DNA of 64,000 bases from Leptolyngbyaceae cyanobacterium C42_A2020_001. Its GTDB lineage: Bacteria; Cyanobacteriota; Cyanobacteriia; Leptolyngbyales; Leptolyngbyaceae. This document shows positions 24,310 to 31,510 of the stretch, piece after piece. Under the pieces are notes generated by a model. That model made no database searches. It was not told the DNA's origin and was given only the letters and a program-made list of their open reading frames with translations. A program made the position numbers and the translations under genes. The stretch covers positions 1-64,000 of the forward strand of contig JACYLN010000115.1 of NCBI GenBank assembly GCA_015272515.1, written 5' to 3'. The first letter of the stretch is position 1; every line of letters starts with the position of its first letter.

Positions 24310-26451
24310 TTAGGTGGCAGCAGACGAGCGGCGGCGACGACGACGGGCGATACCATTTTCGGGCTGTTCCGCTTCAATCATGTTGAGTTCAGGGATTTCT
24401 TCACTGTCTATTTCTTCTGTTACTGTGAGTGGCTCTGGAGAATCACTCTCTTCCTCGACATCTTCAAACGAGTCAGCGAGCGGAGTTGTCATCGCTGCAC
24501 TGGAACTAACGGTTTGCTCCTCTTCCACAGGTGGAGCCTGCCCTGGCAATACGACTGAAATAATTGCCGAACGAGGATTTTTGACTTCCTGCTGCGCCAG
24601 CACTAATGGTGAAATGCCCATCCAGGCGTAGACATCCTGTTCTTCTGGAGTCATCTCTACCGTAACCAGTTCGGGCGGTTCTGCCGATTTGGGTTCTCGC
24701 CGCGATCGCCCTCGCTTCTCCTCTACCTCAAGAGGTGCTGCTTCTTTTTCAAAGGTCGATTCATTCAACTCGCCATCTCGATCTGTCGAATTGTCTCGTC
24801 GTCCCCGTCCCCGTCGCCCTCGGTTAGCTGGTTCTGGCCGCAGTTTGACTTCGGCAAACTCCTCGCTTTCCCCGTCAGTATCCAACCCGCTGTTGCCATC
24901 AGGCAATGGAGCAGGAAGGATAGGCTTGCCTTCGTCCCAGGAGTTGCGTCCTCGATCGCCTCGTTCCCGAGTTAATTCTTCTCCAACTCGACGGCGACGA
25001 CGGCGGCGATTGTTATTTCCTGCCTCTTGATAACCAGGATGACTGGAAAAATCGGGTGCATCATCCTCTTCGTCATCATCCCTCGGTTCCCACGGATACT
25101 CAGCAGGTAGGGGAATATCAGGCAGATCGCGCCCGCGATTCCCGCGCTCACTGCGGAGTTCCCGCGCAGGCAAGACAGCCACTCGTTCTGGCGCATCCTC
25201 TTCTGCTGGCTCAGCATCACCCGGTAGATGAACCAGATGTCCAGTTCCGCCACAGGTTGAGCAGGGCCGCCCAAACAATTCGTAAATATTCTTACCTTGT
25301 CGTTTCCGCGTCAGCTCTACCAGCCCTAATTCAGAAAGTTGAGCAATTTGGGGACGGGCTTTGTCTGACCGCAGTGCCCGGTTAAAGTGTTCCAACACCT
25401 GAAGCTGATCCCGTCGAGAATCCATATCGATGAAGTCTACGATAATCACCCCTGCGATGTTGCGAAGACGCAGTTGCCGTGCAATTTCGGTAGCAGCTTC
25501 GCAGTTTGTCCAGAGAACCGTTTCACGGGCAGTGGCTGAACGGGTGAAGGAACCAGAGTTCACGTCGATAACGGTTAAGGCTTCAGTTCGCTCAATGATG
25601 ATATAGCCACCCGAAGGCAAATCTACCCTCGGTTTGAGTGCTTCCCGAATTGCAGCGCTGACACGGAAGTATTCCAATACCGGAATGCGATCGCGGTGTT
25701 GATCAATCAGCACGCCCTGAGGCAGCTTGCCTCCACCCCAATTCATCAGGTGTTGTTTAACCCGTCTTAGCCCCGTATGGGAATCCACCACAATTCGGTT
25801 GACATCGTTGCTGTAAACATCTCGCAGTACCCGCTGGATGAAATCATCATCCCGGTTCAGTAGGGCAGGAGCACGAGTTGTGCTGCCTTCTCGGCAAATA
25901 CTTTCCCATTGTTCCTGAAGCGATTCCAAATCTTCAATGATGGCTTCTTCGGGCATTCCCTCCGCTTCCGTCCGAACTACCATGCCCATTCCGGCTGGTT
26001 TAATCAAAATTGCCAGCGCTCTAAGCCGATTGCGCTCATTCTCGTTCCGAATTCGGCGGGACAGGTTCACACCCTTGCCGTTGGGCATTAGCACCAGATA
26101 GCGACCCGGTAGGGAAATGTTACCCGTTAAACGGGGTCCTTTGTTTCCGGTTGGCTCTTTCATCACCTGCACCAGCACTTTCTGCTGAGGGCGCAGCAGT
26201 TCGGTGATGGAGCCTGCTTGCCGTTGCAGTTTGAGGGGACCTAAATCGCTGACATGGATGAAGCCGTTGCGTTCTGCATCACCGATGTTGACAAAGGCGG
26301 CATCAATACCAGGGAGAACATTTTCCACAACCCCTAGATACACATCGCCTACTTGATGAGTACCCGTTGCAACGATCAGCTCTTGAATCTGATCTTCTGA
26401 AAAGACGGCAGCGATTCGATGCTGCTCTGCGATAATGATTTGCTTTGGCAT
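24310..26451 (-). CDS. rne: Ribonuclease E
   Basis: Principal endoribonuclease for mRNA decay and RNA processing. 713 residues: S1 RNA-binding domain (about 35-120), catalytic RNase E/G core with VDFIDMD, and the Zn-link CSTCGG (about 396-401). The C-terminal 300 residues are acidic and arginine-rich, low-complexity, without an E. coli-type degradosome scaffold. The last residues include RRRRRRSSA (703-711), known in cyanobacteria as the peptide that recruits PNPase. ATG 26451. It is preceded by a long leader, where cyanobacterial rne is known to autoregulate. Confidence 0.96.
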   Translation of the reverse strand: MPKQIIIAEQHRIAAVFSEDQIQELIVATGTHQVGDVYLGVVENVLPGIDAAFVNIGDAERNGFIHVSDLGPLKLQRQAGSITELLRPQQKVLVQVMKEPTGNKGPRLTGNISLPGRYLVLMPNGKGVNLSRRIRNENERNRLRALAILIKPAGMGMVVRTEAEGMPEEAIIEDLESLQEQWESICREGSTTRAPALLNRDDDFIQRVLRDVYSNDVNRIVVDSHTGLRRVKQHLMNWGGGKLPQGVLIDQHRDRIPVLEYFRVSAAIREALKPRVDLPSGGYIIIERTEALTVIDVNSGSFTRSATARETVLWTNCEAATEIARQLRLRNIAGVIIVDFIDMDSRRDQLQVLEHFNRALRSDKARPQIAQLSELGLVELTRKRQGKNIYELFGRPCSTCGGTGHLVHLPGDAEPAEEDAPERVAVLPARELRSERGNRGRDLPDIPLPAEYPWEPRDDDEEDDAPDFSSHPGYQEAGNNNRRRRRRRVGEELTRERGDRGRNSWDEGKPILPAPLPDGNSGLDTDGESEEFAEVKLRPEPANRGRRGRGRRDNSTDRDGELNESTFEKEAAPLEVEEKRGRSRREPKSAEPPELVTVEMTPEEQDVYAWMGISPLVLAQQEVKNPRSAIISVVLPGQAPPVEEEQTVSSSAAMTTPLADSFEDVEEESDSPEPLTVTEEIDSEEIPELNMIEAEQPENGIARRRRRRSSAAT

Positions 26452-26897
26452 TCAGTTTCCTCAAAATTTAGCGATCGCAATAGGGTTTCGCCTTCCCGAC
26501 TGCTTCTCTACTTGCTGGAGTGCTCACACTACGTTGGTGAAGCTATGCAGATGCAAAAATGCTTTCTATCTTTAGCAATTAGGGGGATGAGGCAACTTGG
26601 AAAAGAGCTAGCCACAATAAAATACAGTCGAGCAACAACTGATGCTCAAACCTGATTACCCACCTGCTATCGGGCATCAAGTAGTGTTGAAATGTAGAAA
26701 GCTTAATGAAGCGTGCTGTGTCCAGTTGTAAACACTGGCTGTGTGGCAGTTCCTCCAGGAGTCTCCAGTTCACAACAGCTTCTGTTGAAATGCATTATAG
26801 CGTGCACTGACGAATGCGCCACTAAAATTCAAAAAAACGACATCTAGCTATTATCATACTCCCTGAGAACCCGGTAAGTCATCCAGCCAACATAGGT
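26452..26897 (-). promoter_or_regulatory. Long rne upstream/leader region
   Basis: 446 bp with no gene, between the radical SAM gene stop and the rne start, both on the minus strand. On the minus strand a U-rich tract (GTTTTTTTGAATTTT, near 26826-26840) lies far upstream of rne. RNase E of model cyanobacteria cleaves AU-rich sites in its own long leader; that this one behaves alike is inference. Confidence 0.45.
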
Positions 26898-29579
26898 TCA
26901 CGGAGTTGCCAGAATTAGGCAGACTCGATGGATTTGGGTTAACTGAAATTCTCGGTGAGCGATGTGCTCCAACATAAATACCACCTGTTCGGGGCGAAGT
27001 AACGTTCCATCATTGCGGCAACTTCCGACATAGCGCAGCGACATGGAAGTAGGCGAATCTGGCTGTTCGGCATCCAAAGTCAGACTAAACAGGCGATCGC
27101 GCAAGTTGACTTGCTGAATTTTTCCAGATTTGGTTTGGTGTTTTGTCCAAATTTCCTGACTTGCCACCACGTCCTTAACCCAGGCATGCCAGTCTGCCTG
27201 GCTCACTGGTTTCAATGCGTCCGAAGCCACAATCTCCACAGTGATCACGTACTCCGCTTGTTCCAATACTTGAGTGGCAGCAGGCGCATTGCGATCGACT
27301 TCCTCCACTCGGTAGATGGGAATGTCGGACGGTAGTTCTTTAGCGAACCGAGCTTGAAACGTTGCAGGTTCCATAACCTCTGTTAGCTCAAAGTCCACAA
27401 TCTCTCCAGAACTCGTAGTGCCTAGCGGCAAGGCATTCGCCGGGATAATGCGCGGACCTGGATGAAACCCGCCGCTGAACGAAATGGGCAGCGATGCCCG
27501 ACGCACAGCGCGATCAAACAGACGCATTAAATCAAGATGGCTCAAGTATGCTATTTCGCCTTGTTTACCCAGCCAAACCCGCAAGCGTTGGACGCGAGTT
27601 TGATTGGGGACGAAATGCCCCTTGAATTGAGGGATTTCGGGGGGAGGTACAACGATATTATGTCCAAAATCGAGTCCACACACTCCGCAATGAGAACACC
27701 CTTCAAACGAGCAGTCTGGAACTGTTGCGGCTGCAAGTGCCCGTTGCAGATCATCCTTAAGCCATTTTTTGTCAATCCCAGTATCTAGATGATCCCAGGA
27801 AAGCGGCGCATCATAGGGTGATATTGGCTGACTACTGGGTTCTGGCTTCTGAACCTCTAGGGTTTGGTCAGGCACTCCGACTGCTCTTGTTTGAGCGTCA
27901 AACACATTCCATTCGCCTTGTTCAACCTGCCGATATTTCCAGGTGAGTTCGGATTCTGCGATCGCTTGTGTCCAAGCGGCAAACGCCCGATCTAAACTTT
28001 CCCACCAGGAATCCATTCCAGCTCCCAGTTCCCAAGCGCGACGGACTACGGCTGCCAGCCGGCGATCGCCCCGCCCCACAAAATCCTCCATTGCCGAAAT
28101 TCGGACATCGGTAAAATTGGCTTTCAGCCCTCGGATGCCTCGAAAGGCATCTTTCAACAAAGCCTGTTTGCGTGCAAATTCAGCCGTGGAAACAGAATGC
28201 CACTGAAAAGGCGTGTGCGGTTTGGGGGTGAAATTGGAAATCGTGAGGTTGAAATTGATCGGTTTTCTGCCTCGAATGCGGCACTCTTGCTGAAGCCAGC
28301 GCACAGTTTCCGCGATGCCCAATACGTCTACATCGGTTTCGCCCGGTAGCCCAATCATGAAGTAGAGTTTTACCCGATCCCATCCCTGCTCGTAGGCAGT
28401 TTTGATGCCCCGAAGCAGTTCTTCATTCGTTAGCCCTTTGTTGATGATGTCTCGCAACCGTTGGGTGCCTGCTTCTGGTGCAAAGGTTAATCCAGTGTTA
28501 CGGGTGCCGCCCAGAATATTGGCAATGTTTTCATCAAAACGATCAACCCGTTGACTGGGCAACGAGAGGGAGATGTTTTCGTTGTTGAGTCGATTTTTGA
28601 TTTCCATGCCCACGGCTGGAAGTGCCAGGTAATCGGAACAACTGAGAGACAGCAGCGAAAATTCGTTGTATCCGGTTGCTCGCATTCCATCCGCGATCGC
28701 ATCAATCACGACAGCGGGTTCCACATCCCGAGCAGGGCGAGTCAGCATTCCCGGTTGGCAAAAGCGGCACCCCCGTGTACACCCGCGGCGAATCTCCACC
28801 GTTAAGCGATCATGCACCGTTTGCACGTAGGGAACTAATCCAATCGAGTATGCCGGAATGGGAGTCGCGACTCGGCGCAAAATTCGCGTGGGCACATTGG
28901 CTCGGTTGGCGTGAACCGAACCATCCGGTGCCATGTCGTAAAACTGTGGCACATACACCCCTGGCACGTGAACTAGATCGAGTAACAACTCTTCACGGCT
29001 CAAGCGATTAGCTTTACCCTCTTCCAACACCAGCCCAATTTCTGGCAACAGTTCTTCGCCGTCACCCAGTGCGATGAAGTCGAAGAAATCAGCATACGGC
29101 TCTGGGTTGGATGTGGCGGTTTGCCCTCCAGCAAAAATCAGGGGGTAGGGATGTGGGCTAGCCTGGCGCTCTTGCCAGGTGAGCGGAATGCCAGCCAGGC
29201 TCAGCATTTCTAGAATGTTCGTTGCACCCAACTCGTAGCTGAGGCTAAATCCTAAAATGTCGAACTCAAGCAGTGGACGGCGCGTTTCTACGGCAAACAG
29301 AGGCGTATTGGTTGATCTCAGTTTGGTCGCTAGATCCGCACCTGGCAGATAAGTGCGATCGCACAATTGGCGCGGTTGGGCGTTCAGAATGTTGTAAAGA
29401 ATGATGTGCCCCAGATTGGATGAACCCACTTCATACACCTCTGGATAGGTCAGCGACCACCGCACGCTTGCCTCTTCCCAGGGTTTATGAACTGCTCCCA
29501 ATTCATTCCCCAGATATTGTGCAGGGCGCAGAATATCTGGAGTCAGTAGGGTTTCAACCGCAACTGTCACGCGAACCAA
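26898..29579 (-). CDS. TIGR03960-family B12-binding radical SAM protein
   Basis: 893-residue fusion. A cobalamin-binding-like N-terminus and a radical SAM core (TIGR03960; RRGCTRGCRFCQPGM holds the C-x3-C-x2-C cluster ligands) are followed, from about residue 640, by a TIGR03936-like domain beginning near LRVWLGKQGEIAYLSHLDLMR. In other bacteria the two parts are encoded next to rne/rng, as here, which hints at a role in RNA or ribosome modification, not yet defined. The opening TTG (29579) is weak; GTG 29570 with AAGG nine nucleotides upstream is more plausible. Confidence 0.9.
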   Translation of the reverse strand: MVRVTVAVETLLTPDILRPAQYLGNELGAVHKPWEEASVRWSLTYPEVYEVGSSNLGHIILYNILNAQPRQLCDRTYLPGADLATKLRSTNTPLFAVETRRPLLEFDILGFSLSYELGATNILEMLSLAGIPLTWQERQASPHPYPLIFAGGQTATSNPEPYADFFDFIALGDGEELLPEIGLVLEEGKANRLSREELLLDLVHVPGVYVPQFYDMAPDGSVHANRANVPTRILRRVATPIPAYSIGLVPYVQTVHDRLTVEIRRGCTRGCRFCQPGMLTRPARDVEPAVVIDAIADGMRATGYNEFSLLSLSCSDYLALPAVGMEIKNRLNNENISLSLPSQRVDRFDENIANILGGTRNTGLTFAPEAGTQRLRDIINKGLTNEELLRGIKTAYEQGWDRVKLYFMIGLPGETDVDVLGIAETVRWLQQECRIRGRKPINFNLTISNFTPKPHTPFQWHSVSTAEFARKQALLKDAFRGIRGLKANFTDVRISAMEDFVGRGDRRLAAVVRRAWELGAGMDSWWESLDRAFAAWTQAIAESELTWKYRQVEQGEWNVFDAQTRAVGVPDQTLEVQKPEPSSQPISPYDAPLSWDHLDTGIDKKWLKDDLQRALAAATVPDCSFEGCSHCGVCGLDFGHNIVVPPPEIPQFKGHFVPNQTRVQRLRVWLGKQGEIAYLSHLDLMRLFDRAVRRASLPISFSGGFHPGPRIIPANALPLGTTSSGEIVDFELTEVMEPATFQARFAKELPSDIPIYRVEEVDRNAPAATQVLEQAEYVITVEIVASDALKPVSQADWHAWVKDVVASQEIWTKHQTKSGKIQQVNLRDRLFSLTLDAEQPDSPTSMSLRYVGSCRNDGTLLRPEQVVFMLEHIAHREFQLTQIHRVCLILATP

Positions 29580-29662
29580 CCTTGTGAAAATAGGCTTAAC
29601 ACGCCCAGTATACTGAAATGCAGTCTGGACGTGCTTTGATAACTGAACTGAGTTAACACTGA

Positions 29663-30070
29663 TTAAGCCGCGATCGCAATGGGTGCCAGGATCTCAGCAT
29701 CTTTTCCGCGTGGAACAGCTTGCCTCCAGGCGGTGATTCCACCCGAAAGTACCACCAGGTTTAAGCCTGTTCGTTGAAGTTTTTGGTAAGCCCGAATTGC
29801 CCCAGGACAGATTTCACAGTATAAAACAATGGTTGGATCTGGTTGTCCAGATTGGGAGTAGGCTCTGGCAATTTGTTCTACAGTCTGGATTCCGTGCCCT
29901 TCCTGAATCTCTTTCAGTGGTACTAGCAAACTGTGAGCAATGCGATCGCGGGCATACTCCTCTGGCGATCGCACGTCGATGAAGATTACAGGCTTTAAAT
30001 GCCCAGCTTCTAAATCGTGCACGGTTATTTTGCTGGTTGAAAAGCTAGCAATGAAACTTGGAATTGGCAT
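29663..30070 (-). CDS. Small rhodanese-like protein with altered active loop
   Basis: A single rhodanese domain of about 135 residues, starting MPIPSFIASFSTSKITV. It is clearly a diverged duplicate of the C-terminal domain of the next gene upstream: both contain a PTIVLYC strand and end in LNLVVLSGGI-x-AWR-x-x-VP. The active loop reads CEICPGAI instead of CQSGPRS, so a second Cys replaces the usual Gly and an Arg is lost; sulfur transfer may be changed or absent. The frame is open to a TTG at 30154, directly after the neighbour's stop, but the extra N-terminus is unlike a domain. No clear ribosome binding site marks either start. Confidence 0.75.
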   Translation of the reverse strand: MPIPSFIASFSTSKITVHDLEAGHLKPVIFIDVRSPEEYARDRIAHSLLVPLKEIQEGHGIQTVEQIARAYSQSGQPDPTIVLYCEICPGAIRAYQKLQRTGLNLVVLSGGITAWRQAVPRGKDAEILAPIAIAA

Positions 30071-30154
30071 ATTACTCAGTTGCTTTGCAAGGTAGAAACT
30101 GCGCCGCGAAAGAAATCCTGAACAAAGAACACACAAATGGCGAACACAAATCAA

Positions 30155-30727
30155 CTACCGTTTTTCGTGAGCGATCGTTGGTATTAATTTGGTTGAGCTA
30201 GAAATTCGAGAAAGAATTGCCATATCTTTAGACTGCGGCACCGTTTCACGCCACGCCTTAATTCCGCCCGACAACACCACTAAATTCAAACCTTTGTCTT
30301 TTAAGATTTGATACGCCTCAATTGAGCGAGGACCAGACTGGCAATACAGAACAATCGTAGGTTGGGACTGAACTCGACTGGAATCGGTGTTAGCTAGGCG
30401 TTTGATTTTTTCTACCCCTTCACCAGTCTTGATTTCAGTCAGGGGTACAGAAATGCTATCGCCGATGTGATCGGCAGCATACTCTTCTGCATCTCGCACA
30501 TCAACCACAACGACCGACTTCACCTTGCCTTGTTCCAATTCAGCGGTTGTGATTTTAGGAGTACTAAACCCAGCGACAAATGTATACACCATCGACTTTA
30601 TGCTGTAATTTTTAGCTTTGGCGTAGCCCACACCCCCAGTAGCACTACCAACTAAAACAAGACATAAAAGCAGGGGTACGGGACGAAGATAGATCGGTTT
30701 TTTTTGCAGGGGTTGGGTGCTAGTCAT
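30155..30727 (-). CDS. Possible internally initiated membrane-anchored rhodanese
   Basis: Alternative product of 190 residues in the same frame as the fusion, from ATG 30727 preceded by AGGAGG. The N-terminus (MTSTQPLQKKPIYLRP) followed by one hydrophobic helix is typical of a free single-pass membrane rhodanese. A TAG in another frame overlaps the ribosome binding site, as expected if an upstream gene once ended there. Reported as an overlapping candidate rather than an independent gene. Confidence 0.45.
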   Translation of the reverse strand: MTSTQPLQKKPIYLRPVPLLLCLVLVGSATGGVGYAKAKNYSIKSMVYTFVAGFSTPKITTAELEQGKVKSVVVVDVRDAEEYAADHIGDSISVPLTEIKTGEGVEKIKRLANTDSSRVQSQPTIVLYCQSGPRSIEAYQILKDKGLNLVVLSGGIKAWRETVPQSKDMAILSRISSSTKLIPTIAHEKR

Positions 30728-31510
30728 GGGGCGTTTCCTCCTATGGCGGGTTGCTAGTCGCTCAAATGGAACCATTAACTGCTTGAAGTAATTAGTTGGG
30801 ATGGAATAGGGAATGCCATAACGAATGGGGCGTTGCCCTGGGGGCATATACAACGTGCCAAATAGAAAATCCATCAATGGAAGTTGGGCTGCCAGGTTTT
30901 TGTTACGAACGCCCGGCTGGTTCGCATGATGCCAGTGATGAAATTCTGGTGTTGCAACGACCCATTTGAAAGGTCCCAGTGTGAGGTGTGTGTTGGCGTG
31001 GATGCAGAAGGCGATCGCGGCTGAAAACAGCACAAATAACGCAAACGTTTGCGCGGAGAATCCCAGCCAATATAGCGGAATCATTTGCAGCAGCTTGGTA
31101 AAAAGCTGATCGACGGGATGGACGCGAACAGCAGCAAGCCAATCCATTTCCTCAATGCTGTGATGGATGGTGTGGAACTGCCAGAGCCAGGGAACCGTAT
31201 GCATCAAACGGTGACCGAGATAGTAGCCCACATCTGCAATCACCATTGCCTCAACAAATTGCCATGCGATCGGCTGCGAACTAACCCACTTCTGCAACTC
31301 CGAATTGGCAGTTCCGTCAGCTAAGAGCACTGCAAGAGCAATGCAAATAACAGTGCCTGCTCTGCCAATGAAAAACCCTGTTAAATAATAGGTTGCATCT
31401 GTTGCCCACTCACGGCGGAAGGTTTTCTGCTGATGGAGTGGAAACAGTCGCTCCAACGGCACGAAGACAACAAACAGGATAATAAATCCCTTAATCACGT
31501 CCGCAATCAT
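30155..31510 (-). CDS. Fatty acid hydroxylase/sterol desaturase fused to a membrane-anchored rhodanese
   Basis: 451 residues in one frame. Residues 1-255 are a membrane di-iron hydroxylase of the sterol-desaturase superfamily, with His boxes HRLMH, FHTIHH and EFHHWHH among several hydrophobic segments. From Met262 the protein looks like a separate membrane-anchored rhodanese: hydrophobic helix (about 279-298), then a rhodanese domain with active Cys in YCQSGPRS. The codons just before Met262 contain AGGAGG (30737-30742) at 9-nt spacing from the ATG at 30727, a strong internal ribosome binding site. Either a genuine fusion or two overlapping products. The substrate is unknown; carotenoid or lipid hydroxylation is possible. 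Confidence 0.85.
   Translation of the reverse strand: MIADVIKGFIILFVVFVPLERLFPLHQQKTFRREWATDATYYLTGFFIGRAGTVICIALAVLLADGTANSELQKWVSSQPIAWQFVEAMVIADVGYYLGHRLMHTVPWLWQFHTIHHSIEEMDWLAAVRVHPVDQLFTKLLQMIPLYWLGFSAQTFALFVLFSAAIAFCIHANTHLTLGPFKWVVATPEFHHWHHANQPGVRNKNLAAQLPLMDFLFGTLYMPPGQRPIRYGIPYSIPTNYFKQLMVPFERLATRHRRKRPMTSTQPLQKKPIYLRPVPLLLCLVLVGSATGGVGYAKAKNYSIKSMVYTFVAGFSTPKITTAELEQGKVKSVVVVDVRDAEEYAADHIGDSISVPLTEIKTGEGVEKIKRLANTDSSRVQSQPTIVLYCQSGPRSIEAYQILKDKGLNLVVLSGGIKAWRETVPQSKDMAILSRISSSTKLIPTIAHEKR

Follow-up and report, generated by a model that had tools for sequence, protein, structure and literature searches.

In the window, a 64,000-nucleotide stretch of the 5.55 Mb genome of Leptolyngbyaceae cyanobacterium C42_A2020_001, a putative di-iron hydroxylase and a membrane-anchored rhodanese share one open reading frame. 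Comparison with relatives indicates that this frame very probably arose when an ancestral two-gene unit was joined in the ancestor of the genus (here called g1), and that the joint still contains the start codon and ribosome binding site once used by the rhodanese gene. Gene fusions that leave behind an inner start, as a relic or perhaps still in working order, are a known kind of event; the present case is real and well explained, and its unusually good intermediates make it a natural experiment. Separate and fused forms, together with the hairpin-uncoupled ones of some Pseudanabaena, show a path from overlapping genes to a single protein, and the series raises the question of whether an inner start survives fusion. 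The features are listed in Table 1.

Table 1. Features of the fused gene, its joint and the adjoining gene (positions in the window)
Feature	Position	Strand	Details
Fused ORF, 451 aa	30155..31510	-	FA_hydroxylase, linker, TM helix and rhodanese; start ATG 31510; Pfam
FA_hydroxylase domain (PF04116)	30854..31252	-	Residues 87-219; Pfam, E 7e-28
Histidine motifs HRLMH, HTIHH, HHWHH	within 30854..31252	-	Conserved; in FA_hydroxylase domain
TAG, candidate lost hydroxylase stop	30741..30743	-	Hydroxylase's most usual frame relative to rhodanese in relatives
AGGAGG, Shine-Dalgarno-like	30737..30742	-	Encodes Arg257-Arg258; computed duplex with 16S tail -10.2 kcal/mol
In-frame internal ATG, Met262	30725..30727	-	Corresponds to start of relatives' separate rhodanese gene; GTG in G002
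TGA, alternative lost-stop candidate	30724..30726	-	Remaining frame; overlaps ATG (ATGA)
Predicted membrane helix	30614..30679	-	Residues 278-299, preceding rhodanese; AlphaFold2 model, hydropathy
Rhodanese domain (PF00581)	30245..30544	-	Residues 323-422; active-site Cys390 in CQSGPRS; Pfam, E 2e-16
Second rhodanese gene, separate	29663..30070	-	Directly downstream; lacks a membrane helix; present in G002 too

A preliminary description of this DNA had placed a hydroxylase and a membrane-anchored rhodanese in one frame, and both Pfam domains and the predicted transmembrane helix indeed fall within ORF 30155-31510. The profile scores are 98.1 bits for the hydroxylase domain (gathering score 31) and 60.5 bits for the rhodanese domain (gathering score 22.2). 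Nine histidines (H100, H104, H113, H116, H117, H171, H191, H194 and H195) are retained in nearly every aligned hydroxylase row, and the putative di-iron assignment rests on these together with family membership. The top NCBIfam match of the hydroxylase is the model for the ornithine lipid hydroxylase OlsE (NF052566), with which it shares the FA_hydroxylase domain and the histidine motifs, but the match is a remote one: its 138.6 bits lie far under the equivalog cut-off of 475 bits, and the OlsE model is without a rhodanese part. A comparison of the hydroxylase part with solved structures by sequence gave zero matches, and when the whole model was used in a fold search the listed matches all fell on the rhodanese part, so that the hydroxylase fold was hardly probed. 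The active-site cysteine is kept in every aligned rhodanese row, and this domain is by its residues intact and a candidate sulfurtransferase; the membrane helix that precedes it is also found in relatives with separate genes. The AlphaFold2 model consists of two confident units, with pLDDT falling to about 50 at residues 260-280, the region of the internal start, and the stretch encoded at the joint is accordingly modelled as a disordered linker. Another rhodanese joined to an oxygen-using enzyme is the persulfide dioxygenase-rhodanese fusion of PDB 5ve3, whose rhodanese part is a structural match to the one modelled here (Z 12.6, rmsd 2.6, 103 aligned), although the partner there is an enzyme of another kind, a soluble metallo-beta-lactamase-fold enzyme. 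In the literature searched, no published hydroxylase-rhodanese pair was found.

The preliminary description had proposed to search relatives for the two domains as separate genes. Pairs were sought in 388 genomes from the class, in the family to which the window belongs, in a second family (f34, Microcoleus) with its genus, and in a scan of named contigs; 44 usable pairs were placed on a tree, 37 of them different (certain species are present twice, from two collections). Separate genes in differing frames make up 35 of the 44 pairs, the rhodanese being shifted to the +1 or +2 frame relative to the hydroxylase. Measured from the end of the hydroxylase stop, the separate rhodanese mostly starts somewhere from 35 nt before it to 1 nt short of it, as in the TAATG of Pseudanabaena or the overlaps of 11-32 nt in Microcoleus, and this geometry at the hydroxylase/rhodanese joint is that of translationally coupled neighbours (compare PMC3711429). 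The other nine pairs are fused: two g1 species, six Microcoleus species in one clade, and one Microcoleus that stands apart (L149). In a third g1 species, whose genome (G001) is 84% complete, the gene was not seen. Relatives thus do not uniformly encode one conserved fusion, and the RHRRKRP segment at the joint of the window's gene is limited to g1 among the relatives aligned.

Could two real genes simply have been joined by an error of assembly or sequencing? A one-base error in the overlap could suffice, but the same fusion is open in G002, the second species of g1, whose assembly is one contig, and also in the six Microcoleus of one clade and in L149; for practical purposes this explanation is ruled out, its probability being negligible.

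When the fused state is mapped on a tree built from both parts, the minimum is three changes (counted without direction), bootstrap trees with a single change amount to 0%, and a single clade of all fused rows is rejected (AU p = 6e-6). Grouping just the seven fused Microcoleus rows is compatible with the tree (AU p = 0.17), and the tree alone does not force two separate events within Microcoleus; two are nevertheless favoured because the joints carry different indels. In the junction alignment, the fused clade of six species differs from separate sisters by -1 nt and L149 by +2 nt, changes that join the same frames. The Microcoleus joint can thus be seen, from the aligned sequences, to be a small indel near the overlap and not a stop mutated to sense. 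Two fusion events, one in g1 and one in Microcoleus, appear secure from these comparisons, and three are likely.

Considered together, the relatives show by comparison that separate adjacent genes would be the ancestral state and that the fusions arose in g1 and in Microcoleus. The reverse course, an ancestral fusion from which separate pairs emerged by repeated splitting, is very unlikely. Changes on the tree are undirected, and the three could include losses, but all of the sampled deep branches (Pseudanabaena, G040, a Spirulinaceae bin, G317, G405 and G415/G421) have separate genes, the fused forms that repeated splitting would require low in several deep lineages were not seen in the 388 genomes taken from the class, and a tree with one fused clade is rejected. 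Adjacent coupled genes in one genome that are fused in another are also the substance of the GeneTack frame-transition clusters (PMC3711429); here, in contrast, a single kind of pair has undergone joining at least twice and probably three times, with distinct indels visible at the joints.

The preliminary description had suggested a recent fusion through loss of a stop. The fusion itself stands, given the separate genes in most relatives, while "recent" has to be qualified, the fused form being shared by both g1 species, and the joints in Microcoleus are indels rather than stops mutated to sense. Considering that the g1 fusion is common to two species with about 76% protein identity (this species versus G002), it is most simply older than the split between them.

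How were the two frames joined in g1? Comparison gives the usual arrangement as the starting point: a membrane FA_hydroxylase followed by a membrane-anchored rhodanese whose start, in a different frame, coincides with the hydroxylase stop or lies close to it. Joining of the two frames in the ancestor of the genus gave one fused protein, and the former rhodanese ribosome binding site and start codon persisted in the joint, where they now code for linker. By the Microcoleus pattern, the joining mutation was presumably a small insertion or deletion upstream of the rhodanese start. Covalent linkage may then have replaced the translational coupling of two enzymes that already cooperated at the membrane, and the fusion would keep the two enzymes together on one membrane at a constant ratio. 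The neighbourhood and the repeated fusion suggest that the two have a common task; repeated fusion is good evidence of joint work by the uncharacterised hydroxylase and the rhodanese, and offers a handle on function.

At the joint each of the two remaining frames runs into a stop, here a TAG and a TGA, and likewise in G002 (GTGA). The TAG at 30743-30741, which forms part of TAGGAG(G) and is also present in G002, had been pointed out in the preliminary description as an out-of-frame stop overlapping the site, and it is a plausible ancestral stop because, taking the rhodanese as reference, it lies in the frame most often used by the hydroxylase, as in Microcoleus and the majority of the others. 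The TGA in the third frame, which went unmentioned there, overlaps the ATG and would match the way the pair is arranged in some Pseudanabaena. The g1 members that carry the gene are both fused, and TAG and TGA are both plausible candidates.

The internal site is as the preliminary description had it: 9 nt separate AGGAGG (30742-30737) from the in-frame ATG (30727-30725), and codons 255-261, at this ribosome binding site, read R-H-R-R-K-R-P. The background rate was drawn from 285 long ORFs in 462 kb of the 5.55 Mb genome. There, AGG makes up 3.0% of Arg codons and AGG-AGG 3 of 427 Arg-Arg pairs; just one of 1,236 in-frame internal ATGs, that at 30727, has AGGAGG 5-10 nt upstream, and when ATG, GTG and TTG are all counted the figure is 5 of 5,419 internal codons. 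The internal AGGAGG-ATG is unusual in the genome because, by comparison with relatives, it is the start of the former rhodanese gene. With its duplex energy of -10.2 kcal/mol it is among the strongest Shine-Dalgarno-like contexts in the compared set; these energies were computed with what we take to be the anti-Shine-Dalgarno sequence of the cyanobacterial 16S rRNA tail. At the same place G002 has TAGGAGA and GTG (a Shine-Dalgarno-like AGGAGA, -7.3 kcal/mol). RNA structure at the internal start shows no excess over chance (z = 0.52), and a search for internal promoters gave a single weak match (30579-30552), inside the ORF and downstream of the internal start, in numbers as in shuffles.

Does the inner start still work? 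One reading is that the internal Shine-Dalgarno site and its ATG or GTG are under selection, the mRNA giving the fused protein and, in addition, an anchored rhodanese on its own. The precedent is CcmM of beta-cyanobacteria, in which the short form, CcmM35 alongside CcmM58, is proven and arises via an internal ribosome binding site (PMC8580825). In both cases the C-terminal part of a multi-domain cyanobacterial gene begins behind an internal ribosome binding site, here a candidate one, AGGAGG at a workable 9 nt from an in-frame ATG; the short form, proven for CcmM, is a predicted product here, and the two parts of the present fusion are separate genes in most relatives. In-frame internal starts have also been documented in Salmonella (PMC11005335). 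Such a role is possible, if somewhat short of probable. It is favoured by the strength of the site in both g1 species, by its standing as the sole AGGAGG-preceded in-frame internal ATG in the 462 kb, by the start codon being maintained in both g1 species despite the change of residue (Met versus Val), and by the internal ATG being kept in all seven fused Microcoleus. Against this, two g1 species are compared, 10 of their 14 shared Arg codons are the same and identity at their four-fold sites is 40%, so that AGG-AGR may quite possibly have survived with no selection acting on it; moreover, a separate rhodanese gene without an anchor lies directly downstream.

The other reading is that the site and its ATG are a silent relic without a role, and that the fusion is the sole product. 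Ribosomes translating the hydroxylase would, from general knowledge, cover the site, and the RNA fold and promoter signals there are unremarkable. The fused Microcoleus also speak for it: in the clade with the -1 joint, duplex energies range from 0 to -6.4 kcal/mol, compared with -4.9 to -10.7 kcal/mol in the separate Microcoleus sisters (Mann-Whitney p = 0.025, a hint, as the test ignores relatedness), and since the site has mostly weakened in that clade, it is not generally needed after fusion. L149, at -7.8 kcal/mol, has a stronger site. What stands against a silent relic is that neither g1 species has lost the strength of the site, although their protein identity is about 76%, and we regard this reading as evenly poised. 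Perhaps the inner site still starts some free membrane-anchored rhodanese in g1, a suggestion we make tentatively; if it does, one locus would supply tethered and free rhodanese at a set ratio. The fuller proposition, that cyanobacteria fused a translationally coupled pair on about three independent occasions and that the g1 start has been kept by selection, is rather unlikely.

The second rhodanese might be taken for a recent duplicate of the fused domain, but this is unsupported, each lying on its own deep branch. The region after the fusion on the same strand (24310-30154) holds this gene, a long radical SAM-like ORF and an RNase E-like ORF, and a common transcript for the fusion and the downstream genes is possible.

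Two further observations concern Pseudanabaena. In several members (L121, L124, L127 and L133), a palindromic hairpin repeat between the genes shifts the rhodanese start off the hydroxylase stop, and this apparent insertion is the outcome opposite to fusion. In another (L136, genome G201), the hydroxylase is intact and the downstream rhodanese is disrupted by a frame change.
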